Source of the DNA: a virus
Strand: one strand, 5' to 3'
IMG/VR virus record: IMGVR_UViG_3300048836_000712
Coordinates: 1 to 61,711 of that record
Length of the DNA stretch: 61,711 bases
Part shown: piece after piece, positions 7,395 to 52,516 of the stretch
How positions within the stretch are numbered: the first letter of the stretch is position 1
How the letters are laid out: every line of letters starts with the position of its first letter
Program-made: the position numbers and the translations under genes
The notes under the pieces: model-generated
Database searches by the model: none
The model's input: only the letters and a program-made list of their open reading frames with translations
Told to the model about the DNA's origin: nothing

Positions 7395-7424
7395 AACACC
7401 CCTTTGTTAAGGAAAGGGAACGTC

Positions 7425-18904: not shown

Positions 18905-18935
18905 TCTCGATATGCAGCTTTGAAGTTTCCACCGC

Positions 18936-34679: not shown

Positions 34680-35234
34680 GTCCGTCTTCTCCTTCGAAGT
34701 TGCGGCCTTCGCCGCGATGTTGACGCTGGTGTCTCCGTCGGCACCGTTGGCGACGATGGCGACATGCTTCAGCCGCGAACGACGCACGAGCAGAAAGCTC
34801 GACGACTCGGCGCGGATCGTGCGGCCGTTGACGACCACCTGCTTCCCCTTGGCGATCCGCTCGGTTTCCAGGGGCTCCGCGCCGACGCTGGCTTGTAGCG
34901 GCACGCCTTCGCGATGCAGATCAATCACGCGCAGCGCCCGCTCGCTGGTGCGCGAGAGGGTTCCTTCGACGGACAGACGCCCGTCGCGCCGCGCGGGAGC
35001 ACCGCTCCCCAGGACCGCTTCGATGCGGTTCTCGTGATCGGCTAGAAGCGGAATACGGTCGGGCGATTCGATCCCTTCCACGTCGAGGACGACGGGGCCG
35101 AAACCGGCAACGGTCATCAGACCGCCGCTGTACGCATCGACTCGCACCAGCGCCGGTTTGTCGTCGCTGGCTGCAGCCTCGATGGTCAGATCGACCGGGC
35201 TGACGAATCGCATTTCACGCTGGTCATGCGGCAT
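33213..35234 (-). CDS. Prohead protease-major capsid protein fusion (prophage)
   Basis: 673 residues from ATG 35234, overlapping the portal stop by 11 bases. Protease part 1-185: His in LLADHENRIEAVLGSG, Ser in PLQASVGAEP, and KHVAIVANGADGDTSVNIAA. Capsid part 186-673: helical N-terminus, LPNILSNVANKELLAGFMEE, GEIKHGKLSEESY, YAKMFSLTRDKIIDDDL, PSILLVPPELQ, AWYLLRSP and FRGYHDFGVDFAEW at the end. The order and motifs match the other two capsid fusions. It forms the procapsid of the prophage, with the protease removing scaffold-like segments. Confidence 0.9.
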   Translation of the reverse strand: MPHDQREMRFVSPVDLTIEAAASDDKPALVRVDAYSGGLMTVAGFGPVVLDVEGIESPDRIPLLADHENRIEAVLGSGAPARRDGRLSVEGTLSRTSERALRVIDLHREGVPLQASVGAEPLETERIAKGKQVVVNGRTIRAESSSFLLVRRSRLKHVAIVANGADGDTSVNIAAKAATSKEKTDMEFTQWIEAQGFVTDDLDDKQTASLQAMYDGTQKPGGKGAATSAVAELRAELAAETARVGAIRKLCAGRHPIIEAKAIGDGWDATRTELEVMREERPRAPAIHAAGTSGPIAAEVIEAALCGTLRTPGREKLFSEQTLEAADKNYRQLGLHEMILMAAQANGYVGRSVVTKATLPDMFRAAFAPINAAFSTLSLPNILSNVANKELLAGFMEEDQSWRDVSITRTVGDFKTVTSYRMLDDMEYEELGPTGEIKHGKLSEESYTRQARTYAKMFSLTRDKIIDDDLGAFEDLRVRLGAGAARSFNNVFWSRYINNATFFTEARGNFIKGAGTALDINGTGLQAGILAFRKLKSPDGKRIGGLPSILLVPPELQFIAQRLYQSTTVNTGGASSNDSVPSDNIHAGKYRPVVVDWLSDATFTGNSAKAWYLLRSPTVLSAVVVSFLDGVQTPTVDMAEADFNTLGVQFRGYHDFGVDFAEWLAGIKAKGEA

Positions 35235-36681
35235 CGGCGGGCTCCATTTCTTCGTCGGCGGGTTCTTCCGCGGGCGAGGTTGTGGGCTGCGCCGCCGCTG
35301 GCGCGAGGCCAAGTTCGCCTAGCAGCGCGATTTCCTTGGCACGCTGGCGAATCTGCGATTCCCAGTCCTGGCCGCGCCGCGCGTATTCGTCGGCGAGCGT
35401 GGTCGTATGATTGGCAAGGCGCGTCGCCTGCGCCGTCGCTTCCTTGGCGGGATCAACGTGCTCGTGCCCGTCCCAAAACCACTGGTGCGGCCATTCGGCG
35501 ATAGGCGGCAGGCCCGAAGGAAAGAGGCCTGGAATGAGAACCGCCTCGTCCAGCCAGGCGGCGAGAATGCGATCCAGCACTACGCATTCGAGGTGCGATT
35601 GCTCGACGCGGATCGCTTTGAAATACGTCTGGTGGTCGAGGCGACCGGAGGCGTAGTTGTATCCGCTGCTATTACAGGCCGCGATGTTATACGGCATGTT
35701 GAGGCAGCGGCTGATTTCGTTCAGAAGTTCGCGTTTGAATTCGCCATAGGTGGTCGCGGGCTGCTCCGCTTCCATCTGGCTCATCTTCCAGCCGCCCGGC
35801 ATCGTCAGGAGGGCACGCTTCTCGAGTTCGATCGGCTCGAACGGTTCGGCAGCGTCCGCTTCGCCGTTGGCAGGCGCGTCGGTGTAGAGGATGCCCGCGA
35901 AGTCGGCGGCTGTTTCCGCCGCTGCGAGTACCGCGAGCGTGAAGCGCCGCAGCTGCGCGAACAGCGGTAGCGCCGGCATGAAGTCGGGGATGCCGCGGGC
36001 CTGGCCCGGCCGGTCGGCGCGGAACCAGTGGATCATCGATTCGACCGGAACCTTGTCGTAGGTCCGCGCTGCCAGCGATGTCATGTCGCCGGGATGCTCT
36101 CGCAGGACGTGATACTCGGTCGGGTTGCCGGCAGCGTCGAATACGATGCCGTCGATGGAGTTCGGATCGGCGCGAAACAGATCGGGTGTGCATACTTGGT
36201 CCGCCTCAACGAGCCGCACATCGAGTTGAATGGCAGTCGGCAAGGCGGGGTTACTCGTCAGAATGCCGAACGCCTCGCCATCGGAAGCGCGGGCCATTCG
36301 CATGGTGCGGAGCTTCTCGGCCAGCCCAACCGCCTTCGACCACCGCATAAAGGCCTGCTCGATGCGGCTGTTGGCGTCGGAGTCGGTGGTGAGAAGTTGC
36401 AGCCGCGGGCCGGTGCCCACCACATCGTTGGCGAGCGTGAGTGCAATCCCGCGGGCGTAGCTGTTGTTGGCGACTTCATAGCGGGCCCGGTTCCGCAGCA
36501 CGCGGCGCACGTCGGGACTGTTGGCAGCGTTGGCCGAGAGGCCGTCGGCATTCGACCAGTGGCGGCGGTTGTCGGGATTCGTCGCCGCTGCGTCGTACTT
36601 GGCGCGCACGATCCGCACCGCCCGGCTGGTGGTCGGGGTTGTCGGCTTCGACGAAAAGAGGTTGGTGAGCCAGCCCAGCAC
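35224..36681 (-). CDS. Portal protein, lambda family
   Basis: 485 residues: RHWSNADGLSANAANSPDVR, VLRNRARYEVANNSYARGIA, then GTGPRLQLLTTDSDANSRIE, DGEAFGILTSNP, DQVCTPDLF, YHVLREHPGD, HWFRADRPGQARGIPDFMPA, and a C-terminal NMPYNIAACNSSGYNYASGR, the block that is diagnostic for lambda-type portals. It forms the twelve-fold DNA gate on which terminase docks. It overlaps both neighbours. It is the only portal gene in the window, so any satellite here would have to borrow it. Confidence 0.93.
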   Translation of the reverse strand: MLGWLTNLFSSKPTTPTTSRAVRIVRAKYDAAATNPDNRRHWSNADGLSANAANSPDVRRVLRNRARYEVANNSYARGIALTLANDVVGTGPRLQLLTTDSDANSRIEQAFMRWSKAVGLAEKLRTMRMARASDGEAFGILTSNPALPTAIQLDVRLVEADQVCTPDLFRADPNSIDGIVFDAAGNPTEYHVLREHPGDMTSLAARTYDKVPVESMIHWFRADRPGQARGIPDFMPALPLFAQLRRFTLAVLAAAETAADFAGILYTDAPANGEADAAEPFEPIELEKRALLTMPGGWKMSQMEAEQPATTYGEFKRELLNEISRCLNMPYNIAACNSSGYNYASGRLDHQTYFKAIRVEQSHLECVVLDRILAAWLDEAVLIPGLFPSGLPPIAEWPHQWFWDGHEHVDPAKEATAQATRLANHTTTLADEYARRGQDWESQIRQRAKEIALLGELGLAPAAAQPTTSPAEEPADEEMEPADAA

Positions 36682-38760: not shown

Positions 38761-38826
38761 AAGTCGTTTCCCCCTTTGCTCCAACCTTCGCAATCGCAAC
38801 TTTTGATCAGCGAATATTTACCTCCA

Positions 38827-38885: not shown

Positions 38886-39074
38886 TCAATTGCCGGTTCC
38901 GATCACGCGTTCCCAGGTCGTGATTCGTTGCCCGCAGTGTCGGCACTCTCTACGACGAACAACCTTTCCACCCCAGGCCGAGCGAGTGTAGACAACCCAG
39001 AAATGTCTGCAGCCACAGTTGTGGCATTGAAGGCCGCGGTCGCCATCACGGGGCATCTTCTGATCGTGCTTCAC
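38886..39074 (-). CDS. Small zinc-ribbon protein (NrdR/Ogr-like)
   Basis: 62 residues with two CxxC knuckles, CHNCGCRHFW at about 17 and CRHCGQRITTWERV at about 45, the latter close to the NrdR zinc-ribbon RxxCxxCxxRFTTxE. Its ATG overlaps the stop of the terminase part (39071-39074). Small zinc proteins at this place can be late-gene activators (Ogr/Delta type), but the layout is not a clear match. It could read with terminase as one transcript. Confidence 0.7.
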   Translation of the reverse strand: MKHDQKMPRDGDRGLQCHNCGCRHFWVVYTRSAWGGKVVRRRECRHCGQRITTWERVIGTGN

Positions 39075-42000
39075 AAATGCTTCCTCCGTTGAAGTTCGGC
39101 AAAACTAATCCGCTCACGCTTGACCGGTTGAACGGCTCCGCCGGCCCCCGCCAACACTGCCCCCTGAATCGACGCCGCTGCAGCACATCCAACGAGGCCG
39201 TCAAACCAGTGGTTGTCGCCTCTCTCTGGTCGCATCTTCCATTCGTCAACGGTCCGCCCGCGGCCTTCGGTTTTCACGCGGTACTCGGACGTTAGATGCT
39301 CGACGAAGAGACGGTGCTGTTCCGGGCCATCGCCGAAGATGGAGAGACAGCCACGGTCGCCCATCGGCACCACAAGCCGAGCGTGGACGAACGTCTTCCA
39401 GAAGTTGGTGTCGTACACGACGTGGCGTACCGCGCGCTTGCCGGCGACGTTCGGCATCCGCCAGTTGTGGCCGACGCGATCACCTGGTCGGCGCTTGTAC
39501 TCAGAAAACGGCTGGCTCGACGCGCCGACGAACCGTCCGTGGCTGGGCATGACGACTCCCGCGTGCGCCGACTGCCGGCAGAATTGGTAGACCACATCCG
39601 TACTCGATCCCCAGTTGGCGTCGATCAGACAGCGTTCAACCCGCAGCATCGCCCCGTCGTCGCGTCGCCATTCGCGTCCAAGATAGGAAGTGGTGAGCTG
39701 CTCGAGGCCAGCGTAGATGGCCCCTTCGATGCCGCTGGCCTTGGTCGCTAGCGGCAACGTGAGCCGTGCATCGCGGAGTGTGAAATACGGTCGCTGCTGG
39801 TCGGGGAATGTACCGTAGTCGATGACGTATCCGGTGAAGTCGTCCTCCCATGCGGCGACCACGAAGAACAGCAGGTTCGCCTGCACGTCGATAAACATGG
39901 TGACGTGGTTGCAGCCGACTGGCACGGCGCGGCGCTGCATTCGATTGGTCTTGCTGGCAATCTGGTCAGCTGAGAGTTCTTCAGACTCGGACGTTTCCGC
40001 AGGAAGCGGTTCGTTCTGGTACTCCGCGAAGAATGCTGCTTCGTCCTGAAGGCGAAGGTTCATCGCATGCTGGATCGCAGATAGCTCGTCGTGGTTGAAT
40101 CGCTCGGGCCAAGCGATCTCTGCGCCGGCGTCCATCGCCTCGCGATCGGCAGCATAGAACTCGGTTGCCAGACGAATGTCGCCGTGGGCGCGGAGACTTT
40201 CGCCACGCAATTCACCGTACCGCTGCCACTTCTTCTCTTCGACTGGGAACGAGTAAACCATCTTCGTCCGCTCGCCGTTCCACTCCGGGTGCTTGTCACG
40301 CGAGAGGATGTTGTCCGCCATGTCGCCAGGACGAATCACCGTGCAAGGCATGATCCCGCTGATCTTCTTGCCTGGTCCAGCCAAACCGAGAATGGCACCA
40401 GCCAAGATTCCCTCGCGCGTCGCGCACTGCGAAAGCGAACGAGCGGATTCGTCGGTCTGCGGATCGTCCCCTCCCACGACCTGTGTGGAAGCGAAAGCTG
40501 ATTGCAAATCGGCGTACAGAATAATCGTGCCAGTGTTGGCGTCGGGTTCGATCTCGATGCGCTGCACGAAAGCTTCCACCAATTGCCGATCGGCCAGGGT
40601 GATTTCGGCCTTCGCAGCAATCGCATCCAGTCTCGCCAGTTGCTCACTGGCCCAATCGCGTAATTGCTGTTGAGTGAGCGCCGGTCGCGTCGTCGCGTCG
40701 CTGGCCTTCTGCTGGCTCATCAGCGCGTCGCGCTTCCGCTTCAGTTCCGTCAGCACGGTGTGAATGTCATCCAGGCCGTCGAAGGTCGGGTCGGCGAGCA
40801 AGGCAACGGTCGTCTTGATGCGGCGGTTGATCTGGTCGAGCTCGCGCCGTTGCTCCGAAGCGTTGGTGGCCGCAATCGGCTTCGAGACGGATTTCACAAA
40901 GGCGTCGATGGCCTGCTTCCGCGTCTTGGCGTCGCCCTGCAACACCTGGCCGATGACCTTCAGCACGAACTCATCGAGCGCCGGCCCCGGAATACGAACC
41001 AGGCCGCAAACATTCTTCCCGTAGCGATGGTAGCCGGAGCAGGTGTAATGCCGGTAAGGACCGCCAAGTCCCGGCTTCCGCCGGTGGTCGCGGACGGTCG
41101 TGAAGCTCATACCGCAGCGTTTGCAAACGAGCAGCGTCGAAACCAGCGTGCGCCGCACCGAGCGGGCTTTGCCGCCGGCGTCCCTGCGTTTCAGGATGCC
41201 CGCCTGAACGGCGTCGAACGTCTCCTTGGAAACCAAAGGTTCGTGAACGTTGGGGACGATGATCCAGTCCGACTCCTGGTTCTTAAAGTTACCGCGTTTG
41301 CCCTTCTTGGCCTTCAGCTTGCCGTTGGCGTCCATGCTGAACAGCGAGCCGCTTGTCCGCTTGTTGTAGGCCAGCGCTCCGTAGTACACCGGCGACCGCA
41401 GCATCTGCGCGATGTTGGACGTGTTCCATTTGAATCCGAACATCGTCGGCACGCCTTCTTCGTTGAAGCGCTCCGCGATGTACTTGAACCCGTAGCCCTT
41501 CGCGCTGAGGTCGAACATGCGCTGAATCGCTTGGACGTGCTCCGGCGTGCTGGGCGTATAGCGCACGATGTCTCCCTTCGCCTTGGCCACGTAAACGTCG
41601 CCGGCAATGGTGCGGACCAGCTTGCCCTCGGCGTCGAATTCGAGTTTGCTGCCATCGGCCATCCAACGCAGCGTGCGGACGACTTTGCCATCCGGCGTGA
41701 CGTGCTGCTTGTCGTAGCCGTAAGGCGGTTGCCCGCCCGGCGCGCTCTTGCGTTCGCGGATGTTGCTGATTTGACCGCGAATGGAATCCCGCGCGAGCTT
41801 CACCGAGTACTGCCGCGCTTGCCAGGACTTCACGCCCTGAATGAGTTCGCCTTCGTCGCCCTCGGGAATGCCGTCAGCGGTGAAAACTACATCGACGCCG
41901 GCGAGCCGCAAGCGATGCAGGTAATACCCGGTCTCATTCGTTCCGCCGCGCGAGAAGCGTGAAATGTCATAGCAGAGAATGGTGTCGAAGTCGCGACCGT

Positions 42001-42217
42001 TCTCGGCGGCAGCGATGATCTGTTCGAACGCATTGCGGCCCTTCGCGCTGGTGCCGGAGATTGCGTCATCGATGAACCACCGCACGATGCGGTAGCCATG
42101 CTCCTTGGCCCATTTCTCGACGTAGGCCTGCTGGTCGGGGATCGAGCGCTCCTGCATGTCGGTGCTGCGGCGGGCGTAGCCGACCGCAGGGATGCCACTA
42201 GAATTACGAGTAGCCAT
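39071..42217 (-). CDS. Serine integrase (Element 3) fused in frame to terminase large subunit C-terminal half
   Basis: 1048 residues from ATG 42217 (SD AAGGGAAG upstream). Residues 1-584 are a large serine integrase: resolvase start AVGYARRSTDMQERSIPDQQ (Ser18 nucleophile), recombinase domain, zinc-ribbon CKRCG...YTCSGYH...CG and coiled coil. Residue 584 is Asp, codon GAC 40468-40466. From 585 on it is terminase: DPQTDESARSLSQCATREG, then nuclease acidic residues in MFIDVQANLLFFVV, RCLIDANWGSSTDVVYQF and DNHWFDGLVG. No stop or frameshift separates them. Element 3 has inserted in frame; the native integrase tail lies at 50783-50872. The fusion cannot be a working terminase since the ATPase half is 8 kb away. 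Confidence 0.9.
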   Translation of the reverse strand: MATRNSSGIPAVGYARRSTDMQERSIPDQQAYVEKWAKEHGYRIVRWFIDDAISGTSAKGRNAFEQIIAAAENGRDFDTILCYDISRFSRGGTNETGYYLHRLRLAGVDVVFTADGIPEGDEGELIQGVKSWQARQYSVKLARDSIRGQISNIRERKSAPGGQPPYGYDKQHVTPDGKVVRTLRWMADGSKLEFDAEGKLVRTIAGDVYVAKAKGDIVRYTPSTPEHVQAIQRMFDLSAKGYGFKYIAERFNEEGVPTMFGFKWNTSNIAQMLRSPVYYGALAYNKRTSGSLFSMDANGKLKAKKGKRGNFKNQESDWIIVPNVHEPLVSKETFDAVQAGILKRRDAGGKARSVRRTLVSTLLVCKRCGMSFTTVRDHRRKPGLGGPYRHYTCSGYHRYGKNVCGLVRIPGPALDEFVLKVIGQVLQGDAKTRKQAIDAFVKSVSKPIAATNASEQRRELDQINRRIKTTVALLADPTFDGLDDIHTVLTELKRKRDALMSQQKASDATTRPALTQQQLRDWASEQLARLDAIAAKAEITLADRQLVEAFVQRIEIEPDANTGTIILYADLQSAFASTQVVGGDDPQTDESARSLSQCATREGILAGAILGLAGPGKKISGIMPCTVIRPGDMADNILSRDKHPEWNGERTKMVYSFPVEEKKWQRYGELRGESLRAHGDIRLATEFYAADREAMDAGAEIAWPERFNHDELSAIQHAMNLRLQDEAAFFAEYQNEPLPAETSESEELSADQIASKTNRMQRRAVPVGCNHVTMFIDVQANLLFFVVAAWEDDFTGYVIDYGTFPDQQRPYFTLRDARLTLPLATKASGIEGAIYAGLEQLTTSYLGREWRRDDGAMLRVERCLIDANWGSSTDVVYQFCRQSAHAGVVMPSHGRFVGASSQPFSEYKRRPGDRVGHNWRMPNVAGKRAVRHVVYDTNFWKTFVHARLVVPMGDRGCLSIFGDGPEQHRLFVEHLTSEYRVKTEGRGRTVDEWKMRPERGDNHWFDGLVGCAAAASIQGAVLAGAGGAVQPVKRERISFAELQRRKHL
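40466..40468. other. Attachment core of Element 3 (integrase side)
   Basis: GAC on the minus strand. On one side is the integrase sequence CAGGTCGTGGGAGGG, on the other the terminase sequence GATCCGCAGACCGAC. The matching core is at 50873-50875. The core is a codon (Asp) in both proteins and frame is kept. The shared core is only three bases, so the precise crossover within it is uncertain. Confidence 0.75.
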
Positions 42218-42405
42218 TGCTTCCCTTTCCAATACAAAGGGTGGTCTTGGTCAGAGCCGCTTCGGCGTTGCGCGTCCGAGCGGCTCGTTTCGTTCACGAA
42301 CCACCACAGTTACCAGGACATCGCCGCAGTCATCCAGCCGGTACCAGCGCGCGCGGGTGGCCTGCGTTCGCGTCGCCGGGCCGGTCGGACGAGCGGTCCA
42401 ACCGT

Positions 42406-42430
42406 AAGAAAAGGCCGCGTCGTGCGGCCT
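42406..42430 (-). terminator. Rho-independent terminator, minus strand
   Basis: AGGCCGC (42412-42418) pairs with GCGGCCT (42424-42430) over five bases; on the minus strand TTTTCTT follows. It lies between the YLPT-type gene and the integrase gene, in the 42218-42459 gap, and would insulate integrase expression from the upstream operon. The rest of that gap has a weak open frame with no start. Confidence 0.75.
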
Positions 42431-42459
42431 CGTGGGCGACGTGGTGGCGAACCGGGGCA

Positions 42460-42693
42460 TCAGATGCCGGCCGTGGTGGCCACTGCGAACTCCCCGTCGC
42501 GCGGGCGGCGCTTGGCCGCACCACGCCAGCCTTTGATCGCGCGGAACAACCGGCACTTGGCGGCGATCTCCCGTTTGGTCGGCAGGTATTCGAGCGTTCC
42601 GTTCGTCGCCCGCGTCCATCGCCCGCGATCTACCCACCGGCCTTCGATCTGCCACTGGCGGACTTGGCCTGTCAACATCTTCTGCTCGTCCAT
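42460..42693 (-). CDS. Small conserved island protein (YLPTxxEI family)
   Basis: 77 residues from ATG 42693 (GGGAGC upstream; a TTG at 42708 is possible). The block NGTLEYLPTKREIAAKC then RLFRAIKGW matches the 6008-6220 protein of Element 1 (YLPTPEEIATTCREIQNGW). A basic C-terminus follows (AAKRRPRDG). The shared small protein, next to an integrase in each island, supports a common origin for the two islands. Function unknown. Confidence 0.65.
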   Translation of the reverse strand: MDEQKMLTGQVRQWQIEGRWVDRGRWTRATNGTLEYLPTKREIAAKCRLFRAIKGWRGAAKRRPRDGEFAVATTAGI

Positions 42694-42814
42694 CGTTCTG
42701 GCTCCCAATTATGTGGTTTCGGCGGGCGGCCATTCCGCCCGCGGGAGTCACACAGGAGCCAGCAGTTCCGAAACATTGCAAGTCAATCGCTGCCAAATTG
42801 CTGAAGATTTTCAT

Positions 42815-43051
42815 CTAGGCTTCATCCTCGTCGACAAGTTCCGCCAGGGCGTCGTTCCACGGCAATCGGCCATCGCGGATCGCGGCCTCGATCCGTTTGA
42901 AGAACCGCCATTCCCACAGCGGGACGATGGCGACGTCCTCGCGCTTGTACCGCCGCACGATGATCGGCTCGTCCGTATTCGCCACGTGCTGGCAGGCGAT
43001 GCCCAGCCCGTCACGAAGGTGCGTAATGCTCATCTGGTGTTCGGTGGCCAT
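42815..43051 (-). CDS. Phd/YefM-like antitoxin-type small protein
   Basis: 78 residues: MSITHLRDGLGIACQHVANT, then DEPIIVRRYKREDVAIVPLW and EWRFFKRIEAAIRDGRL. The strand-turn-strand around PIIVRR and VAIVPLWEW resembles prevent-host-death antitoxins (pxxIt..g..vAvlvs..ey). No toxin gene lies next to it. It could be a stand-alone regulator. Assignment is tentative. Confidence 0.5.
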   Translation of the reverse strand: MATEHQMSITHLRDGLGIACQHVANTDEPIIVRRYKREDVAIVPLWEWRFFKRIEAAIRDGRLPWNDALAELVDEDEA

Positions 43052-43279
43052 AAAAATTCGGACATGTACAAGAATAAAACACTGTCCTGATTTGCGACTG
43101 TTCCCGCACGCCTCGGGAAGACGGCCTCGGCGGGGAAGTACCTACGCGACTGTCCGGTTCGAATAGTGACCACCTGGCCCGACCATACGCCACACGGGCC
43201 AACGTGGCGCGACGGGTGGCCTCGGTCGTACCCATCAACCTCGCGTGCTTGCGCTTCGCGCGCTACGCATACAACCCGG

Positions 43280-43310
43280 CCCCGGGCGTGCGTTCGCGCA
43301 CGCACCGGGG
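43280..43310. promoter_or_regulatory. Very stable hairpin with TTCG loop
   Basis: CCCCGG plus GCGTGCG (43280-43292) pair with CGCACGC and CCGGGG (43297-43310) with one bulged A; the loop is TTCG. It lies 40 bases past the helicase stop in the 43052-43349 gap, so it may protect or end the helicase mRNA, although no T-run follows. The remainder of this gap shows no gene. Confidence 0.5.
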
Positions 43311-43349
43311 GGGTACGGGGGGGCGCGCGTACAGAACACACAAAGCGCA

Positions 43350-44960
43350 TCACCTCTCCTCCGGTTGCGGTTCGGTGGCGAACTGCACTGGATGGGTAGC
43401 ACCGAATTTCCAGCGGTGAATCAACCCCTGCGACTCGGCCTGCTTGAGCAGCTTGGTCGCCTTGCGTTCCGACAAGCCGGCATCCATCGCCGCCTGCGTG
43501 AGGGCCAGGATCGTGGCCGGCGTCGAGCCGACGAACGACTCGGCGAACCGCTCGACGTCCCACTCAGGCTTGGCCGGCGCGTCGGGGGCGACGGGTTTGG
43601 GTTCCTTGCGCCGTCGCGGGCGCTCAGGCCGCAGGTCGGCCGGGTCGAGCGAGTCGTCGGGGGTCCAGACGGGAAACGTCCACCGCAAGCAGCGCGGCGA
43701 CAACGGGGGCCAGGACCGAACGGCAGCATCGAGCACGACCACGTCGTCCTGCTCATGCGGCCGCAGGATCAGGTGGGTATCGGTGGCCCGCGACTGCGAG
43801 CCCGCGCCGGCCCCGACGTCGGTCACGCTCTTGCCCGACTGGTTCCCCTTGCTGCTGTGATGCACCAGCGCGAAGGCGCACCCCAAGCGGGCCGCGAACG
43901 AGTCCAGCACGTTGTAGACCTGGGCCATCGTCCCGTTGTCGTTCTCGTCGGTGTCGCGCGGCATGAATCTGTAAAATGCATCGAGCACCACGAGCTTGAA
44001 CCGGCCCGGCGGCAACTGCTGGAAGTATTCCCCCAGGCCGAAGATGTCCTTGAGCCGGCCCCGCATGTTGGCGACGAACACGCGGTCGGCGACTTCCTCG
44101 AGCACAACGTCGCGGGCCTGCATCACCTTGGGGATGCGATGGGCGCTCGTCTCGCGGTGCAATTCGTTGTCGACGATCAGCACGTCCCCCCGCTCACACG
44201 CGAACGTATCAAGCCAGGAGCGTCCGGTGGCGACCGCCAGGGCCAGATCGGTCACGAGCCAACTCTTGCCGACTTTGCTGGTTGCGATCACGTTCATGGT
44301 TTCCCCTTCCCGCAGTAGGCCGTGAATCACCGGCCGGCGCAGGTCGGGGTTCTCGTTGATCAGTTGGCGAAGGCTCTTGACCGCCAGGGAAAGGGGCAGG
44401 TTGTTGGCCTTCGCCTCTTCCTTGGCGACTTGTTCGAGGCGGTCGAGCAAGGCGCGGCGCTCGGGGTCGATGCACTCCTCCGGCGCGGGCGGGCCCTTGA
44501 TCGTGGCCGGGTTGATTTCCGCGCCGGCCCACCGCCGCACCCGCTCGGCCCAAGGTTGCATCACCAGCAGGCGAATTGCCTCATCGAGAACTCCCCGGTC
44601 CTCGAACTTCTCCCAGCACTGGGCGGCAAGCTCGAAGGCCTGGACGCGGCCCCGATGGCGGGCGGCCTCAACGTCGTGCCCCGCGCGGTAGAGCACCTGC
44701 TCGGAATCGAATTCGGGATTCCCGTACAGCGCGGCGCTGGGAACCAGCACCTCGGCGCGCTCGCGGGCGTTGCGGCGATCCTGCCAGGCGGCTTCAATCA
44801 ATTCGCAGTCGGGGATGTCCCACTCCGCGACGACGTTCGCCGCCTCTACGAAGGCGGATCGATAGGCCCGCTCCGCTTCCATCAACAGAGGCGTGGAGGA
44901 AAAATCGGGACCGTCGTTGTAGAACCGCACCGTGTCAGCCGGCAGCGTCAGCGTTGGCAT
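43350..44960 (-). CDS. RepA-like AAA ATPase/helicase (Element 3)
   Basis: 536 residues from ATG 44960, preceded by GGAGG; the open frame continues upstream but that part is poor. N-terminal about 180 residues are helical (PLLMEAERAYRSAFVEAANV). The ATPase domain has Walker A VIATSKVGKSWLVTDLAL at about 225, Walker B FKLVVLDAFYRFMP at about 310 and the sensor LGCAFALVHHSSKGNQSGKS at about 350, the AAA_25/RepA hexameric helicase pattern. The C-terminal 100 residues look like a winged helix. Probably drives element replication after excision. Overlaps the 58-residue gene by 26 bases. Confidence 0.85.
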   Translation of the reverse strand: MPTLTLPADTVRFYNDGPDFSSTPLLMEAERAYRSAFVEAANVVAEWDIPDCELIEAAWQDRRNARERAEVLVPSAALYGNPEFDSEQVLYRAGHDVEAARHRGRVQAFELAAQCWEKFEDRGVLDEAIRLLVMQPWAERVRRWAGAEINPATIKGPPAPEECIDPERRALLDRLEQVAKEEAKANNLPLSLAVKSLRQLINENPDLRRPVIHGLLREGETMNVIATSKVGKSWLVTDLALAVATGRSWLDTFACERGDVLIVDNELHRETSAHRIPKVMQARDVVLEEVADRVFVANMRGRLKDIFGLGEYFQQLPPGRFKLVVLDAFYRFMPRDTDENDNGTMAQVYNVLDSFAARLGCAFALVHHSSKGNQSGKSVTDVGAGAGSQSRATDTHLILRPHEQDDVVVLDAAVRSWPPLSPRCLRWTFPVWTPDDSLDPADLRPERPRRRKEPKPVAPDAPAKPEWDVERFAESFVGSTPATILALTQAAMDAGLSERKATKLLKQAESQGLIHRWKFGATHPVQFATEPQPEER

Positions 44961-45111
44961 GCTCGCCCTCCATCCGCTTTGCTTCCCACTGGGCGAGCAG
45001 CCAAGCGGCGAGCGCCTCGACGCGCCGTTGGCGATAATCCTCATTCTCTTGGGGCGCGCAAAACGCCACGCGCACGTCGTAGTTGCCGACGCGCTCCGTC
45101 GTTTCGGGCAT
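44935..45111 (-). CDS. 58-residue protein overlapping the helicase start
   Basis: MPETTERVGNYDVRVAFCAP, then QENEDYRQRRVEALAAWLLA and QWEAKRMEGEH. ATG 45111 follows AAAGGAGGA, one of the best ribosome sites in the window, eight bases upstream. Its 3' end overlaps the helicase ATG in another frame, giving translational coupling. Short but composition and ribosome site are convincing. Function unknown. Confidence 0.6.
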   Translation of the reverse strand: MPETTERVGNYDVRVAFCAPQENEDYRQRRVEALAAWLLAQWEAKRMEGEHANADAAG

Positions 45112-45165
45112 GACCGTTCCTCCTTTGCCGAGTGCTGCGGGAAGCAGCGAGAGGGGCGCGGCGGC

Positions 45166-45185
45166 CCGCAGGGGTCTGCCTGCGG
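45166..45185. promoter_or_regulatory. Hairpin between capsid and helicase genes
   Basis: CCGCAGG (45166-45172) pairs with CCTGCGG (45179-45185). It lies in the 171-base gap between the capsid stop and the 58-residue gene. No T-run, so perhaps an mRNA processing or attenuation structure. Confidence 0.35.
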
Positions 45186-45282
45186 ACCGCGGTCGCCAAG
45201 CGGCGAGGTCGGTCGGTGGATCGGTAGGTTGGTTCGGTGGGGGGCGGTTGGATGACTACGGGTATCCCGAAGTGAGAAGCGA

Positions 45283-46590
45283 TCAGGCTTCCCCCTTGGC
45301 CTTGTAGGCGGCACGGTGATCGGCCAGGGCCGCACCGAAATCGTGATACACCCGCCACGATGCGGCCAGCGTGTTGGGGTCGGCATCGAACCCGAAGAAC
45401 TCGACGGTGGGGGACTGCTTCCCTTGGAGGAACGCAACCACCAGCGCGGCGTCCGCCGGGCCGGCGAACAGATACCACGCCTTGCCGCTCGTGCCGTCGA
45501 ACCGCTCGTCGTTCGACAGACGCGGCTCGACCTCTAGCGACACCGAATTCTTCAGCGCGTTGCCGGTCGGCAGGTCGTTGTTGGCCCGCTGGATGAAGTC
45601 GCTGAGCAGCAACTCCTTGGCGGTCTGTTGCAACTCCGGCGGCACCAGGAGCGTGCGCGGCCGGATGTCGAGGTCGCGGTTCTCGTCGTCCCGTTGCGCC
45701 AGCATCTTGGCGATGCCGGCGGCGAGCGAAGTCGAACCGAGCACCGTCCCCGCGCCGGCGTCGTAGTTGCCGTGGCCGGTGCTGAAGAAGTTGCCGGTGT
45801 TCGCCAGCAGCACCTTGTAGACTAGGTCGGAGAGCGAACGCATCGCGGCCCGCCCCAGCGAGCGGGCCGTGTCGTCGAACAGGCTGAGGTCGTCGTTGAT
45901 GATGTCCCGCCGGTCGATGCTGAGCATCTTGGCGAAGGTGTCGATGGAGAAACCGTACATCGCCTCCTTCACCGAGCCGTGCTTGATCTCGCCGCCGGGC
46001 GGAAGCTGCGTCAACTCCCCGGTATCGCTGATGCGGATGCCGGTGTGTTGCTTGAAATCGACGGCCGACTTCACCGAGGCGAAGGCCCGCCAGGTGGCCG
46101 GCGACTCGGTGTAGGACTCGAACAGCAGCTTGTTGGCCGCGTCCCCCAGGGCGGTCGGCAACGAGTAGGTGGAGAGCGCCGCCTTGATCAGCCCGTCGCG
46201 GCCGTGCGGGGCGTCGCGGCCGTCGATTACGAGCGCCGCACGGCACAGATCGACCAGGTTCGTCGCCCGCAGGTCGCGGGCCCGCTGCGCGGCTTCCGGC
46301 CCCAGGTGCTTCTCGGCCAGGTGCTCGCTGTTCATGTGGGCCAGGATCGCCGCCTCGAGCACCAAGCGCGAGGCGGGCTCCTCGCGGGGGTGCGTCGAGA
46401 GCGGGATCGGCCGCCGCGCCCGCAGCACTTCCAGTTCCGTCCGCTGAGCGTCCCAGCCCTCGGCGATGGCCTTGGCTTCGATGTTGCCGAACCGCCCGCC
46501 GCAGGCCTTGCGGATGGCGTGGATGCGAGTCGTTTCCGCCAGGGCGTCGGCCCGAATCTGCTCGGCGGTGAGCGTTTCCGTTTGAGACAT
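45283..46590 (-). CDS. Internal in-frame start: free major capsid protein (Element 3)
   Basis: ATG at 46590 (residue 179 of the fusion) follows AAGGAGC with six bases spacing. Product 435 residues. Same placement as in the other two capsid genes. Confidence 0.65.
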   Translation of the reverse strand: MSQTETLTAEQIRADALAETTRIHAIRKACGGRFGNIEAKAIAEGWDAQRTELEVLRARRPIPLSTHPREEPASRLVLEAAILAHMNSEHLAEKHLGPEAAQRARDLRATNLVDLCRAALVIDGRDAPHGRDGLIKAALSTYSLPTALGDAANKLLFESYTESPATWRAFASVKSAVDFKQHTGIRISDTGELTQLPPGGEIKHGSVKEAMYGFSIDTFAKMLSIDRRDIINDDLSLFDDTARSLGRAAMRSLSDLVYKVLLANTGNFFSTGHGNYDAGAGTVLGSTSLAAGIAKMLAQRDDENRDLDIRPRTLLVPPELQQTAKELLLSDFIQRANNDLPTGNALKNSVSLEVEPRLSNDERFDGTSGKAWYLFAGPADAALVVAFLQGKQSPTVEFFGFDADPNTLAASWRVYHDFGAALADHRAAYKAKGEA

Positions 46591-47124
46591 GTTTTGCTCC
46601 TTCCCGTTGGCCGCAATCGAGACCGACGTACCGGCGTCGGCCCCGATGGCGACGATGCTGACCTCCCGCAGCACGCCCGCACGCACGAGCGTGAACCCGC
46701 TGGCCGGCGCTTTGAGGGCGCGGCCGTTGACCTCCACCGTCTCGCCGCCCCGCACCCGCTGGTAGTCGGTGGGTGCGACGCCGACCGATGCCTGGAAGCG
46801 GAACCCGCCCTTGGCCAGATCGACCACTTGGCGAGCCGCATCCGTTGAAGGCGTGATGGTGCCTTGCACCAGCAACTTGCCGTTGGCGACCACCGCTTTG
46901 CCATGCCCAACAATGCCGGCTAGCGAAGCATTGTGATCGGCCAGGATGCTCACCTGCTCGGCCGAGGCGTCGATGCCGCCGAGTTCAATGGCAACCGGGC
47001 CCCAGCCGGGCACAACCATCAGTCCGCCGGTATAGGCGACGATGCTCACCGCCGGCGACTTGCCCGTTGCCTGAATCTCGACCTCTGCGGCCGAGAGCAA
47101 AAGTTCATCAATTGCAACGGTCAT
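45283..47124 (-). CDS. Prohead protease-major capsid protein fusion (Element 3)
   Basis: 613 residues, ATG 47124 overlapping the upstream stop by four bases. Protease 1-178: His in ILADHNASLAGIVGHGKA, Ser in FRFQASVGVAP, LREVSIVAIGADAGTS. Capsid 179-613: TALGDAANKLLFESYTESPA, GEIKHGSVKEAMY, FAKMLSIDRRDIINDDLSLF, TLLVPPELQQTAKELL, KAWYLFAGP and a final WRVYHDFGAALADH. The third copy of the same fusion in the window, but distinct from the other two at most positions. It is expected to make a capsid shell; no partner portal or terminase is in Element 3. Confidence 0.9.
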   Translation of the reverse strand: MTVAIDELLLSAAEVEIQATGKSPAVSIVAYTGGLMVVPGWGPVAIELGGIDASAEQVSILADHNASLAGIVGHGKAVVANGKLLVQGTITPSTDAARQVVDLAKGGFRFQASVGVAPTDYQRVRGGETVEVNGRALKAPASGFTLVRAGVLREVSIVAIGADAGTSVSIAANGKEQNMSQTETLTAEQIRADALAETTRIHAIRKACGGRFGNIEAKAIAEGWDAQRTELEVLRARRPIPLSTHPREEPASRLVLEAAILAHMNSEHLAEKHLGPEAAQRARDLRATNLVDLCRAALVIDGRDAPHGRDGLIKAALSTYSLPTALGDAANKLLFESYTESPATWRAFASVKSAVDFKQHTGIRISDTGELTQLPPGGEIKHGSVKEAMYGFSIDTFAKMLSIDRRDIINDDLSLFDDTARSLGRAAMRSLSDLVYKVLLANTGNFFSTGHGNYDAGAGTVLGSTSLAAGIAKMLAQRDDENRDLDIRPRTLLVPPELQQTAKELLLSDFIQRANNDLPTGNALKNSVSLEVEPRLSNDERFDGTSGKAWYLFAGPADAALVVAFLQGKQSPTVEFFGFDADPNTLAASWRVYHDFGAALADHRAAYKAKGEA

Positions 47125-47723
47125 TTCACCACCTCCTGGGGCTCAAGCTTAGCGCCCTTGGGGTAAAACCAGACGTAGGCGTAATCATCAGGGTCTTCGG
47201 CGGGTTCGATCACCGTCGCCAGTCCCAACGGGTCAAAACTCAACCCGACGCTAACGCCGTAGCGCGCGGCGGCGACGCGATGTGCTTTGACACATTGGCC
47301 AAATCGCAGATTGCATACCCAGCAGAAGTGCGTCCACGAACCCCAGTACTCATGCTCATAGAGCCATTCGGCGGCTGCATCGATGTCCTCCTTCTCCCAG
47401 AACATGATGTGGATGGACGGAACGTAATCGACGTTGCCCTGGTCGTCGGTCACCAGCGAGTGTCCGCGGCGGGGATTGCAGATGCCCCGCTCGACTAGGT
47501 GCTGCAGCATCGGCTCGTCGCACTTGAGCCCGCGCAGCCGCAGCTCGCGGAACGCTCCTTCGGTGTGCTTCGGGTACTGGAGCGACGAACTCGAGTTGTA
47601 ATGGTTCGGATTGGGAATGTCCGAACCGGGCAACAAACTGATCAGGTGATTGAAGTCTTCCCGCAGCCAGTAGTAGCGCTTCTTGCTTTCCTGCCGCGCG
47701 GGCAGTTCGTCAGTCAGCTTTGG
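47121..47723 (-). CDS. Hypothetical protein before the Element 3 capsid gene
   Basis: 200 residues from ATG 47723. ESKKRYYWLREDFNHLISLL, then a Cys/His region WTHFCWVCNLRFGQCVKAHR at about 150 that could bind a metal, and DDYAYVWFYPKGAKLEP near the end. A FWEKEDIDAAAEWLYEHEYW stretch is helical. Between the sigma factor (start overlaps its stop by 14 bases) and the capsid gene. I do not recognise the family. It could be a connector or regulator; not assignable. Confidence 0.65.
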   Translation of the reverse strand, partial: PKLTDELPARQESKKRYYWLREDFNHLISLLPGSDIPNPNHYNSSSSLQYPKHTEGAFRELRLRGLKCDEPMLQHLVERGICNPRRGHSLVTDDQGNVDYVPSIHIMFWEKEDIDAAAEWLYEHEYWGSWTHFCWVCNLRFGQCVKAHRVAAARYGVSVGLSFDPLGLATVIEPAEDPDDYAYVWFYPKGAKLEPQEVVK

Positions 47724-48261
47724 CATTCTTGTGCTCCTTTCGTAGTGCTTCCAATTCTCGTTCCACGGTCCGCAAGCCGATGCTGAGTTCGTCAGCAATC
47801 TCGGCGTTGGAATAGCCCGCCATGCGCAGGCCGATGACCTTGCGCCGGCGCGGCGGCAATGACGCGAGATAGTCGTTGAGTCGAGCTATCTCGGCGGGGT
47901 CGCCCTGCGCCCGTTCGTGCCGCGAGGGGGTGTCCCAAGCACGAACGGCGTCTTCACTCCAGAGATTCCCTGATTGGTCGATGGATGGGCTGGTGAGTAG
48001 GTCGGATTGGGATTTCGGTTCGTGGCGTCGTTGGGATCGATAGTCGCGGAACAAGTTTGAGATGCGGGCGACCATGCGGTTCTTGGCCAGACCAAGGTCG
48101 CCTTCGTCTTGCCAGACCTGCCAGCCGGCAAGGAACAGGTCTTGCGCCGCGTCTTCCATGCGGTGCTCGTCCCAGTTCAGTTGGCGTCGCCTCTTCAGCT
48201 TCCGCACCAAGGCTTGGGCGAACTTGAAAAGGTCTTCAGGACTATCGCGTTCTTCAACCAT
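47710..48261 (-). CDS. Sigma-70-family (ECF-type) RNA polymerase sigma factor
   Basis: 183 residues from ATG 48261, with GGAGGA close upstream. Region 2 pattern: EHRMEDAAQDLFLAGWQVWQ and ARISNLFRDYRSQRR; region 4: LASLPPRRRKVIGLRMAGYS then NAEIADELSIGLRTVERELE, a clear sigma helix-turn-helix. Missing regions 1 and 3, as in ECF sigmas. First gene of the minus-strand operon, so it probably directs polymerase to Element 3 genes (or helper late genes). No anti-sigma factor is visible next to it. Confidence 0.85.
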   Translation of the reverse strand: MVEERDSPEDLFKFAQALVRKLKRRRQLNWDEHRMEDAAQDLFLAGWQVWQDEGDLGLAKNRMVARISNLFRDYRSQRRHEPKSQSDLLTSPSIDQSGNLWSEDAVRAWDTPSRHERAQGDPAEIARLNDYLASLPPRRRKVIGLRMAGYSNAEIADELSIGLRTVERELEALRKEHKNAKAD

Positions 48262-48513
48262 TCGTCCTCCATCGAGGCCATCATCGGCCCCTATCCAACT
48301 AATCCACGCGAGGGCGTCGGAACCCGCCAAGGATTTTCCGCTCGCGGGCACCGTGCCCGTCTAACCCCTTATTTCCTGCGGCAGGGCGAGTTCGTAAAAG
48401 CACGGCCGGAAAATTTTCTCCCACGCCCTTGACAGATGATTGTGCGGAGATACCTGATCGGCTAAAATTCGTCCAACTATTGAGGGATCGATTCTTCTTA
48501 CCGAGGTTGGAAC

Positions 48514-49557
48514 ATGAAGCCTACTCGGGGTTTAGCCTGTCCAGTGATGGTCCCTTCCAGGATCGATTGGGAGCGGGATTATTCAGAATTGACCACAGCC
48601 GATCTGGCGGCGATGTCGGATGAGCAATTGGCGGCGGTCGATCCGCTGGCGATAAACCTCATCGTGGCCAAAGGCCTCCCGTCGCTGGCCGACCTCGACA
48701 TCCGGCCCTACCAGGACATCGTGGACGGATGGGTGCTGGATTTGAACCGCCGCTGCCTGCCGCAATGGGAGCCGCACTTCCATCAATCGCCCCAAGACTG
48801 GGAGAACGACATTCGGTACTTCCGCTTGGGCATGGTCTGCCAGTACCTCGATCTGGAAGTCGGCATTCAGTACAACCAGCACCAGCGCGACGTATCCCGG
48901 ATCCTCTACACCAATCCGTCGGACGTTTTTCTGAACGGCGTGCTCGATACCCGCGAGGGCACCTGTGGCAACCTAGCCGCTCTGCACGTAGCGATGGGCT
49001 GGCGGATGGGTTGGCCCGTCTCGCTCGCCTGCGTCGTATCGCATTACATTCTGCGTTTCGACGATGGCGAGGTAATCTACAACATTGAGGCGACGCAGGC
49101 TGGTCATGGCGGGTTCAAGTCCGACCCCGACGATTACCTCATCAGAGAGAAGAAACTGCCGGCAATTGCAATCACGAGCGGTTCCGATCTACGCGCCGTG
49201 CGGCCGCGTGAAATGCTGGGCATCTTCATCAGCCTTCGGGCGCGGCACCTTCAAGACGTAGGCAAGCAGCAGAACCGCGAGGAACTGATGCTGGCGTCCG
49301 AGGCCGACTGGCTGTTGGCCCGGCACCTTTTCCCGCGCAATCGGGCCATTTACAAACACCAGATGGTCATCTCGGCCATGCGCGGCGATCATCTATTCAA
49401 CGAAGACGAAGGCGGTCATCCCAATACGTTTAGTTTGTTGCTCGACGAGATCGCGAGCCGTCGCGGCCGCAATCAGATCGTCGCGCAGCAAGAACTCACT
49501 CTGCCAAACTCCAAGGCCATCGACGAACTCTTCTCGGCTATCGAGGTACGCATATGA
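48514..49557 (+). CDS. Transglutaminase-like (papain-fold) protein
   Basis: 347 residues. The core has the Cys in TREGTCGNLAALHVAMGWRM at about 152, the His in VVSHYILRFDDGEVIYNIEA at about 180 with Asn/Glu following, the Cys-His-Asn layout of the transglutaminase-like superfamily (SirB1-type core). N-terminal 60 residues are acidic and disordered-looking. ATG after GAGG. It is divergent from the sigma factor and starts the plus-strand cargo operon; its TGA overlaps the Rhs-tip gene's ATG, suggesting joint function, for example processing of the toxin. That link is inference. Confidence 0.7.
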   Translation: MKPTRGLACPVMVPSRIDWERDYSELTTADLAAMSDEQLAAVDPLAINLIVAKGLPSLADLDIRPYQDIVDGWVLDLNRRCLPQWEPHFHQSPQDWENDIRYFRLGMVCQYLDLEVGIQYNQHQRDVSRILYTNPSDVFLNGVLDTREGTCGNLAALHVAMGWRMGWPVSLACVVSHYILRFDDGEVIYNIEATQAGHGGFKSDPDDYLIREKKLPAIAITSGSDLRAVRPREMLGIFISLRARHLQDVGKQQNREELMLASEADWLLARHLFPRNRAIYKHQMVISAMRGDHLFNEDEGGHPNTFSLLLDEIASRRGRNQIVAQQELTLPNSKAIDELFSAIEVRI

Positions 49558-50327
49558 CAACCACCCTGACCGCTCCCGTCCGCAATCGCTCCACCAATCG
49601 TCTGAGTCGTTTCGCTCCGATGCTTGACCAGCTGGCCGATCCACTTGGATATGAGGCCGGCGACGCGAATCTGCGCCGGTACGTCGGAAATTCGCCGACG
49701 GACTTAACCGATCCAACTGGACTTAGCCCATGGAAGGGTATCGCTGGAATTCTAGGGAAAAAATGGACTGCGGAAACTTGCGAGCGAGCCGGAAAAACGC
49801 TCGCAACTGAACTGTTGCAGAAATTAGCCCAACAACGCCCAGATTCGCAAAAGGCTCAAGAAATACTGCGAGCTCTAAAGAACATGGGTTGGGTTGAAGA
49901 AGCGTTAGGAAAGGGATCAAAAGCAGGTAAGTCACTTGAAGAGGGTGGGGGAATTGTTCTGCGCGAGATGGAGAATGGGAAACCGACCGGACGGTTTCTG
50001 GAATGGTATCCCGGGGAAGGGCCCCACCACAAAGATCCTCACTGGAAATTTAGTAGTGGAGAGTCTGGAACATTGCGAACCACCATCACAGGAACAGTCG
50101 CGGCAATTGCAATTGCAGTCGTTCCTGGTGCAGCCCAGGCGAGCGAAGGTGATTGGAATGGCGCTGGTAGGGATGTGTTTGTCGAGGTGACGCCACTGGC
50201 TTGGTCAAAAATGATGTGGGAAACGCTGGGTTCTTTTTTTGATTTCTGTGAAAGCGATCTGTACGGCGAGGATTACCACCGTGAGATGGAGGAATACCGA
50301 AAGGAGTACTGGAAAAATAAGAAGTAA
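49554..50327 (+). CDS. Orphan Rhs core tip with C-terminal toxin-like domain
   Basis: 257 residues. About 25-58 carry the Rhs core signature: DPLGYEAGDANLRRYVGNSP then TDLTDPTGL, which in full Rhs proteins marks the cleavage point before a variable toxin. The preceding Rhs cage is missing; the first 25 residues (MTTTLTAPVRNRSTN...) are unrelated. The remainder is a separate domain with WYPGEGPHHKDPHWKFSSG at about 155, a His-rich motif in the style of polymorphic-toxin nucleases, and one hydrophobic segment (TVAAIAIAVVPGAAQA) at about 185. Toxin family not assigned. ATG overlaps the previous TGA. Confidence 0.7.
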   Translation: MTTTLTAPVRNRSTNRLSRFAPMLDQLADPLGYEAGDANLRRYVGNSPTDLTDPTGLSPWKGIAGILGKKWTAETCERAGKTLATELLQKLAQQRPDSQKAQEILRALKNMGWVEEALGKGSKAGKSLEEGGGIVLREMENGKPTGRFLEWYPGEGPHHKDPHWKFSSGESGTLRTTITGTVAAIAIAVVPGAAQASEGDWNGAGRDVFVEVTPLAWSKMMWETLGSFFDFCESDLYGEDYHREMEEYRKEYWKNKK

Positions 50328-50374
50328 ATTGCGACCAAGTACTTTCGAGATGCATTTGGTAGGCCTAAACAACA

Positions 50375-50779
50375 ATGAGTAACGCCGCTAGCAAGCTAAA
50401 TTTGATCCAGTTGCGTAAAAGTCTGCAACAAGCGGCCCTGCCAGCAGACCGTCAAATCGCGCGCCTACAAGGCTTTGACGTAGCATTTGAAGTTGCCGAT
50501 GACTTTGACAACTGGTGCCGCTGGGCGTTGAATAGTGCAGACACACAATTGACGGATGAGCAGCGGTCCCTACTTATCGAGTTGAACAATCGTCTCAATC
50601 AAATGAGCGGCGAACACAACTCCGATCTCTGGACCGATGACGCACTTCGGTCGCGAAACGAATGGGATGAAGTGCGGCGTGAGGCTCGATGTATTCTCGA
50701 TTCCTTTAGCTGGCCGATTGAAGATGCGGAGAAATCGGAAATAGAAGTGGTTCGAGTTAATCCTAGCTCGAACACCTAA
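50375..50779 (+). CDS. Putative immunity protein for the Rhs-tip toxin
   Basis: 134 residues, acidic and helical: LNLIQLRKSLQQAALPADRQ, FEVADDFDNWCRWALNSADT, QLTDEQRSLLIELNNRLNQM and a WPIEDAEKSEIEVV end. It follows the toxin-like gene by 47 bases on the same strand, where polymorphic toxins carry their immunity gene. Lower GC than the phage genes. Four bases after its stop, the minus-strand terminase N-half ends. The immunity role is inferred from position and size. Confidence 0.55.
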   Translation: MSNAASKLNLIQLRKSLQQAALPADRQIARLQGFDVAFEVADDFDNWCRWALNSADTQLTDEQRSLLIELNNRLNQMSGEHNSDLWTDDALRSRNEWDEVRREARCILDSFSWPIEDAEKSEIEVVRVNPSSNT

Positions 50780-50782
50780 ACT

Positions 50783-51748
50783 TCAGTTTCTGTTTGAGTG
50801 GGAAACCCCAGTATTGGTTATTCTCCCCCGCTCCCACGCGAACGCGACCCGCTCCACACGGCTACCCATCCTGTCGAGCACCACGAGCGACGGGCGAACG
50901 GTGTGGCCGTCGGCGCGCTTGTACTTCATGCCGCGGATGCGGCCTGTAATTCCCGCGACTTTGATGATCGCACCGCTGCCCACACTGCCGGGCATCGTCG
51001 GCAGTACGATCTCACGAGCGGTCCAGCCGATGTGCGTCCGTTCGCCTTTGTAGAGCTGGCCGTTGCATCGATTGGCGATCCCGTCGAGGCACTGGATTGG
51101 ATAGACGACCTCGGGGAAGTCTTCGAGCAGCAGGTCGTTGCCGTCGAGCTCCATCTTGATCGAGTCGAGCATATCCATCGCATGGCCTTCGTCCGATCCG
51201 ATCAGGCAGACGAAGTCGCGGTGCCCGTACAACACCGCCCAGATACAGGCGCACTCACAGATGGTGGTCTTGCCCGAGCCTCGCGGCATCGCCATTGCGA
51301 ACAAACCGCCGCGTAACACCGCCTGCTCGATCTTGCCAATGACCTTCAGATGGTCCGGCGACCACGGCAAGTGAAACGTGAGCGGGAAATACGACTCGCA
51401 GAAGAAGCGGAAATCAGAAGCAGCCTGCTTCTTGCGTTCGATATTGACGACGGCCGGCAGGTCGCCGATGTCACGGCCTGCGATGGCGAGCGCGACGTTC
51501 CTCGCCCGAGCTCGATCCTTCAGCTTCTCGTAGGGATCGCCGTCGGGTTCGGGTTTTGGTGCGTGCCGCAGCTCGACGAGCCACGCAGCGTAACGCAGTA
51601 AATCGACAAACCGGGCGTCGCCAATGCGGAGGCCGGCTCGCGTGCGATGGCGATGCAGCTGGCGCTCGTTGATGACTTCGCCGAGCGGCGTCGAGTTGAG
51701 CAGCCGGCAGAGTTCGCTCGGTCGTAGCTTTCGCGGATCAGTCGCCAC
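50783..51748 (-). pseudogene. Terminase large subunit N-terminal half, cut by Element 3
   Basis: 321 residues from GTG 51748. The first 292 are terminase: helix-turn-helix-like start (LCRLLNSTPLGEVINERQLH, LLRYAAWLV), FHLPWSPDHLKVIGKIEQAV, Walker A LFAMAMPRGSGKTTICECAC at about 150, NGQLYKGERTHIGW, ITGRIRGMKYKRADGHTVRP and Walker B start SLVVLD. The GAC of that Asp is at 50875-50873. The next 29 codons (RMGSRVERVAFAWERG...) are the displaced integrase tail. The matching C-half begins at 40465. The reconstituted protein is 756 residues (GpA-type). Interrupted rather than decayed. Confidence 0.9.
50873..50875. other. Attachment core of Element 3 (terminase N-half side)
   Basis: GAC on the minus strand, in CTCGTGGTGCTCGAC-AGGATGG. 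The sequence before it is terminase; the sequence after it is the integrase 3' tail. Partner of 40466-40468. Confidence 0.75.
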
Positions 51749-52414: not shown

Positions 52415-52516
52415 GCCGAAACGCTGGTCGGCCCCGGGCCGGCGAGCGTCGCGGCGGGTGGTTCCCGCCGCCTGATGATGGCAGCCTTTCCATCCGCATT
52501 TCCAAGGAGAACGATC

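Follow-up and report, generated by a model that had tools for sequence, protein, structure and literature searches.

A serine-integrase element that splits a phage terminase gene at Walker B is a probable helper-embedded satellite

The closest described counterparts of the locus reported here are the helper-embedded phage-inducible chromosomal islands (HE-PICIs, of the 11capE type), which are found in Enterobacterales and use tyrosine integrases (Tommasini, Mageeney and Williams 2023, PMC10111431). Their integrase subclades track 14 late-gene sites in helper phages, one of them in terminase A, and many of these islands carry a capsid gene (PMC10111431). Quantitative PCR and sequencing revealed composite excision, then composite replication, then satellite excision, and the embedding has been termed 'regulated gene integrity' (PMC10111431). 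Two further systems share single features with our locus: the PLE satellites of Vibrio cholerae are excised by a large serine integrase (PMC6002521), and archaeal 'suicidal' integrases have attP inside a tyrosine integrase gene, which integration cuts in two (PMC8371274). Here we describe Element 3, a ~10.4-kb insertion in a 61.7-kb IMG/VR virus record (IMGVR_UViG_3300048836_000712; this whole stretch is the window), where the interrupted terminase gene lies on the minus strand. We think it likely that Element 3 is a helper-embedded satellite of a planctomycete phage, placed in the terminase gene by its integrase and gating packaging through its excision.

Element 3 interrupts a GpA-type terminase gene after residue 292, within Walker B. 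Terminase codons 1-292 (51748-50873) finish ...SLVVLD, and the next codon, AGG (R), is already element DNA, which appends 29 foreign residues (RMGSRVERVAFAWERGRITNTGVSHSNRN) to the terminase N half. An acid is found at both Walker B positions, D292 and D293, in all 69 of 69 distinct intact relatives, and the N half has thus lost an invariant residue. Beyond the other junction, the nuclease half continues in frame from the integrase, giving a fused open reading frame (ORF; 42232-39071) of 1053 amino acids that joins 589 residues of serine recombinase to 464 of terminase. An earlier interpretation made from the DNA letters alone, hereafter the sequence-only reading, had held that the ATPase half lacks the second Walker B acid and that the nuclease half is a C-terminal extension of an integrase, and both statements are borne out.

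The boundaries of the insertion are exact. The N half matches phrog_38 (terminase) as far as profile position 404, and the C half takes up the match at 409; joined in silico, the two halves give a 756-residue protein that aligns without gaps, at 95.4% identity over residues 1-756, to the intact terminase of a relative (L011). Dozens of further relatives have the terminase intact across the same 756-residue span. L011 is also the nearest empty site in DNA, with flank alignments that are 86-87% identical and overlap only in GAC. Judged by this gapless join and the empty-site relative, excision would restore the terminase gene exactly. No terminase homologue was found by sequence among solved structures. 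An intein or intron is ruled out as the nature of the insert, which at 10.4 kb and with many genes is quite unlike the genuine inteins seen in further copies of the terminase gene. An assembly join is likewise ruled out: the arrangement is identical across 18.4 kb in a second record, from another sample (L001), and the same split occurs in other phages. Inteins were seen in the same terminase in planctomycete genomes (L141 and L142), one after DDPQTDE, six residues from the Element 3 site, and one within Walker A.

The Element 3 integrase has the hallmarks of a large serine integrase, namely Resolvase, Recombinase and Zn ribbon domains, a 2-nt core and inverted flanking arms. The reconstructed attP reads TCCACAC-14-GA-14-GTGTGGA, and on the circle both arms lie within integrase coding sequence. 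The integrase predicted for the circular form takes its last 29 residues from across attP and is 618 residues long from a TTG start or 613 from an ATG; the latter is consistent with the 613-residue form that the sequence-only reading had set beside the form with 464 extra residues. The tail signature RVExVxFAWxRG, with variants, recurs on the N side of the sense insertions for which that side was seen and also terminates the uninterrupted integrase ORF of L169, and we therefore take the tail to be the native C terminus of the integrase. Every resolved sense insertion is in frame. No integrase reaching 60% identity turned up in sequenced phages or plasmids.

Since attP extends into the end of the integrase gene, the integrase of the circle would differ from that of the prophage, the first native-tailed and the second fused to a helper virion protein. 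The swapped C terminus could set the direction or timing of recombination, with the fused form, under helper late transcription, favoring excision and no separate directionality factor needed, and this overlap would also account for the in-frame placement of sense insertions; we raise this tentatively and doubt that it will hold. A candidate for such a separate factor is a 78-residue conserved protein encoded near the integrase gene (Table 1).

Similar insertions recur. The same codon is split in frame in L002, L003, L004, L005, L007, L008, L091, L099 and L149, and the split is seen from the other side in L056. Integrases of L002 and L004 are 98% identical and their helicases 100%, while terminases and portals are 78% identical; for L007 and L008 the corresponding values are 99% for integrases and 77% for terminases. 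Between such near-identical satellite pairs, identity falls at the core from 299/300 to 236/300 and from 298/300 to 234/300. Since near-identical satellites thus occupy well-separated helpers and identity steps down at the core, the sequences indicate that this group of elements moves between helpers. An apparent intact second terminase adjacent to an occupied copy (L133/L144) is instead a decayed locus with a partial duplicate from about residue 199. In L144 (3958-6381) a decayed prophage retains a satellite end after the terminase N part, and the partial terminase duplicate lies downstream.

We traced the integrase clade through IMG/VR and GTDB genomes, where its hosts are nearly all Planctomycetota, mainly represented by metagenome-assembled genomes (MAGs). 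On the integrase tree the insertion site tracks the subclade, with 13 site changes against a shuffled mean of 22.8. In a methyltransferase subclade the integrase is fused to the C part of the helper ParB-methyltransferase (L006, L100, L101), while L136, L172 and L177 show the corresponding N part together with the tail. Elsewhere the insertions lie at another position in the terminase, some 60 residues further downstream (L104), at the 3' end of a capsid gene (L010, L106) or tape-measure gene (L009/L118), in a gene matching a major tail protein (tail tube; E=0.0008; L093, L094, L109) and in the C part of an SU10-type capsid gene (L102). Antisense insertions also occur, in the middle of a protease-capsid gene (L092) and in the N part of an SU10-type capsid gene (L105, L108, L112, L113, L114 and L119, where the gene was called by profile match in L105, L114 and L119 and by eye in L108, L112 and L113). 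Capsid genes are hit at four positions across the clade, and for several insertions (L103, L107, L110, L115, L116, L120) the target is unassigned. The methyltransferase-inserted loci L172 (1-9424) and L177 (1-16093) have a capsid region that runs directly into helper late genes, lack the terminase, the portal and most satellite replication genes, and look recombinant or late-gene-capturing.

In regard to function, this range of sites changes how Element 3 should be viewed. The satellite with the capsid closest to that of Element 3 (L006; 85%, with a cargo gene at 93%) is nevertheless in a methyltransferase gene, and in another methyltransferase-inserted relative (L101) the terminase reading frame continues beyond the Element 3 site as far as residue 356, where the contig stops; packaging control would thus be one outcome of embedding. 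What the clade has in common, as far as sequence can tell, is that its members embed themselves in genes of the helper, chiefly those for virion proteins; the terminase is the target of this particular integrase subclade. The sequence-only reading, which took Element 3 for a switch that keeps its helper from packaging, therefore stands in part: the terminase is split at its ATP-hydrolysis motif, excision would restore it exactly and the elements move, but packaging control is not the shared trait of the clade.

The integrase, replication, capsid and sigma-like genes of Element 3 lie on the minus strand, as do the helper late genes, and nothing between 40466 and 50875 was recognized as a portal, terminase or tail gene. 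In a tree of 41 capsid proteins, made by a quick method and containing some long branches, 17 satellite capsids form one fully supported clade separate from 23 helper capsids. Sisters within this capsid clade occupy methyltransferase, capsid, tail-tube and tape-measure genes. Scans for promoters and terminators found nothing exceeding shuffled sequence. The cargo region (48514-50779) resembles a swappable toxin-immunity cassette: L006 and L172 share its first gene at 93% identity, while its second gene diverges and has a variable end.

Our preferred account of Element 3 runs as follows. The integrase would recombine attP, which overlaps the 3' end of its own gene, with the GA in the Walker B codons of the helper terminase. 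Integration would then swap 3' ends, such that the terminase N half gains the native integrase tail and the integrase gains the terminase nuclease half, and as long as Element 3 is integrated the prophage would make no working large terminase. Upon prophage induction and satellite excision both genes would be restored. Once excised, the satellite would exist as a replicable circle that carries a capsid gene of its own, in a cell where the helper terminase, portal and tail are available, and it may be packaged with these helper proteins. The trigger may come from the helper, as in PLE.

Several observations weigh against this account. Insertions in the methyltransferase gene and at 3' ends need not block virion production, and some loci look decayed (L144, L172 and L177). 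No excised attP junction was found in IMG/VR, where two pattern scans of viral contigs returned only integrated ends or unrelated sequence; this is weak evidence, because rare forms seldom assemble. A comparison of element and helper revealed no shared packaging site or cos-like DNA beyond coding homology in the capsid and recombinase genes. We infer that the helper is temperate from an incomplete serine integrase gene, which begins at 60487 in the window and runs off the contig, and from the presence of similar integrases in the records of relatives. Lastly, other intact terminases, at 82-87% identity, are present in two bins with embedded relatives (G018 and G022). The sequence-only reading had named a second intact terminase in the prophage or genome as a finding that would count against it; the 61.7-kb record holds none, but these bins do.

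The last of these points raises the question of whether packaging could be independent of excision, with terminase supplied in trans by another prophage or phage in the same cell. Besides G018 and G022, each with an embedded relative, G017 has four intact copies. Yet MAG bins may be mixed (G018 is ~11 Mb), and the terminase DNA of relatives differs by at least 20%, which makes cross-recognition of packaging sites uncertain; together with the record's lack of another terminase, this leaves supply in trans very improbable as an explanation for Element 3. A less improbable alternative, though still an unlikely one, is that the site is merely a convenient conserved target and that insertion breaks the helper with no regulatory benefit to the satellite, many copies being dead ends. 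This would accommodate the sister satellites in a methyltransferase, the decayed loci and a close relative (L098) that ends in apparent chromosomal sequence beside a hydrolase gene, and the inteins at Walker A and at the DDPQTDE/SARS position in other planctomycete genomes do indicate that motifs of this terminase attract unrelated elements. It sits poorly with the recent movement between helpers, the repeated arrival of the integrase clade in helper virion genes and the in-frame placement of all resolved sense insertions. Nor is the idea that the target was picked as the most conserved DNA of the gene supported, as the attachment DNA is not unusually conserved within it, ranking at the 66th, 59th and 41st percentile for 30, 42 and 60 nt. 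We give least credence, and very little of it, to Element 3 being a mobile island or small phage that merely landed here and is not parasitic on this helper: it has its own replication protein, sigma-like gene and capsid, but not a recognizable portal, terminase or tail gene, and its clade resides mostly in genes of phages able to supply the missing parts.

The phage whose late gene holds Element 3 also encodes a portal, a capsid, a decoration protein and a tape measure. The sequence-only reading had described all other head and tail genes as intact, which holds for the portal, protease-capsid fusion, decoration protein and tape measure, all open and recognizable; several tail ORFs are without assignment. 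Between the terminase and portal genes lies a low-GC pair (37112-38799, minus strand) encoding an IrrE-like metalloprotease, with a weak PD-Lambda-2_B match, and a 209-residue partner, possibly a defense or toxin-antitoxin insert. A second capsid-integrase module (3866-9251) comprises a protease-capsid fusion of 650 residues, a 527-residue ORF without a family match and a large serine integrase of 615 residues; this integrase is 30% identical to that of Element 3, and the module is a separate lineage on the capsid tree. A match to the type II hammerhead ribozyme (52414-52490, plus strand; 37.8 bits, barely above the gathering score) overlaps the start of a HARE-HTH ORF (52475-52900); relatives of this ORF are present both in helpers and, beside the integrase, in satellites. 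In the left part of the record (11800-19754, plus strand), an FRG-domain protein (PDC-S15-like) is encoded after a set of type I restriction-modification genes.

Table 1. Positions of Element 3, its junctions and selected helper genes in the window.
Feature	Position	Strand	Evidence or occurrence
Terminase large subunit N half, residues 1-292 (Walker A ...GSGKT..., Walker B VVLD)	50873..51748	-	phrog_38 E=5.5e-21, profile 249-404; 96% to intact L011 terminase
Core dinucleotide GA, terminase-N side junction	50874..50875	-	Sequence; empty-site overlap GAC
Right attP arm GTGTGGA, 14 nt from core	50853..50859	-	Sequence
Element end in frame with terminase N half, RMGSRVERVAFAWERGRITNTGVSHSNRN*, native integrase C-terminal tail	50783..50872	-	Tail signature in relatives
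Cargo: transglutaminase-like protein, ORF with RHS-core-like motif, small partner ORF	48514..50779	+	Transglut_core2 E=1.8e-7
ECF-sigma-like protein	47710..48351	-	Sigma70_r4_2 E=8.9e-9; Sigma70_ECF E=3.4e-8
Conserved satellite protein without family	47121..47798	-	Same place in L094, L099, L102, L104, L010
Satellite protease-major capsid fusion, 613 aa, 36% identity to helper's	45283..47124	-	Phage_capsid_4 E=1.7e-42; phrog_4523 E=1.2e-72
AAA_25 / primase-helicase-like replication protein	43350..45437	-	AAA_25 E=1.2e-32; phrog_2597 DNA primase E=6.6e-38
78-aa conserved protein, helicase-integrase interval in relatives, weak Phd/YefM match (below cut-off)	42815..43051	-	Kept in L002, L004, L006, L009, L098, L099, L103
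Large serine integrase of Element 3, 589 aa to core	40466..42232	-	Resolvase, Recombinase, Zn_ribbon_recom; phrog_95 integrase E=8.9e-95
Left attP arm TCCACAC, 14 nt from core, perfect inverted repeat of right arm	40483..40489	-	Sequence
Core dinucleotide GA, integrase/terminase-C side junction	40467..40468	-	Satellite-pair identity step in relatives
Terminase C half (464 aa, nuclease), in frame with integrase	39071..40465	-	GpA_nuclease E=1.4e-25; phrog_38 resumes
Helper portal protein	35224..36681	-	Phage_portal_2 E=2.1e-57
Helper protease-major capsid fusion, 699 aa	33213..35312	-	Phage_capsid_4 E=3.7e-40; phrog_4523
Helper ParB-methyltransferase, uninterrupted in this record; insertion gene of sisters L006, L100, L101, L136, L172, L177	53914..55227	-	

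In active lysogeny, exemplified by the prophage in Listeria comK, a bacterial gene is affected and excision proceeds without virion production. Element 3 resembles it in the reversible disruption of a gene governed by excision, and the label of active lysogeny that the sequence-only reading applied is a loose one, because the term denotes a prophage controlling a bacterial gene. Capsid-forming PICIs are satellites with a capsid of their own that borrow helper parts, and their set of capsid and packaging genes is larger; compared by description only, Element 3 has just a recognized protease-capsid gene, without a portal and terminase of its own. The PLE satellites share a large serine integrase with Element 3, and in their case PexA, a directionality factor made by the phage, works with the integrase, which provides a model for how the exit of Element 3 might be triggered. 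PLE differs in residing in the host chromosome and in parasitizing a lytic phage. As in the archaeal suicidal integrases, integration of Element 3 alters the integrase gene that holds attP; unlike them, it uses a serine recombinase, exchanges only the last 29 residues and leaves the catalytic part whole.

The HE-PICIs are the nearest comparison. Like them, Element 3 is embedded in a helper late gene, has a site that follows the integrase subclade and carries its own capsid gene. HE-PICIs have a tyrosine integrase, AlpA and a doubled attP motif, whereas Element 3 has a serine integrase, an attP inside the integrase gene, a protease-capsid fusion and hosts among Planctomycetota. The record contains no PF00589 match to a tyrosine integrase (the control was positive in 14/14 genomes), neither the window nor the records of six relatives has a PF05930 match to AlpA, and the doubled TGTATTGC motif that surrounds attP in HE-PICIs has 0 matches in the window at up to 3 mismatches and one spacer length. 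Thus, Element 3 probably functions like an HE-PICI but is not one, differing in integrase type, AlpA and attP motif. The principle of helper embedding, the terminase site included, is already published for tyrosine integrases (PMC10111431), and such satellites had been known from a single tyrosine-integrase clade in Enterobacterales. Against the open PMC papers with which we compared it, the present clade is new in its serine integrase, phylum, protease-capsid fusion and range of targets, and in the way integrase and helper gene trade 3' ends in frame. Sister satellites of similar build, some in a terminase and others in a methyltransferase gene, offer a clean test of the effect of embedding, and the clade also provides serine integrases that naturally target many different sites. 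The Element 3 clade is a convergent variant of the helper-embedded strategy in an unrelated serine-integrase clade. That such a clade hits the terminase at two sites, the capsid at four positions, the tail tube and the tape measure suggests that embedding in helper virion genes is a general strategy of satellites.

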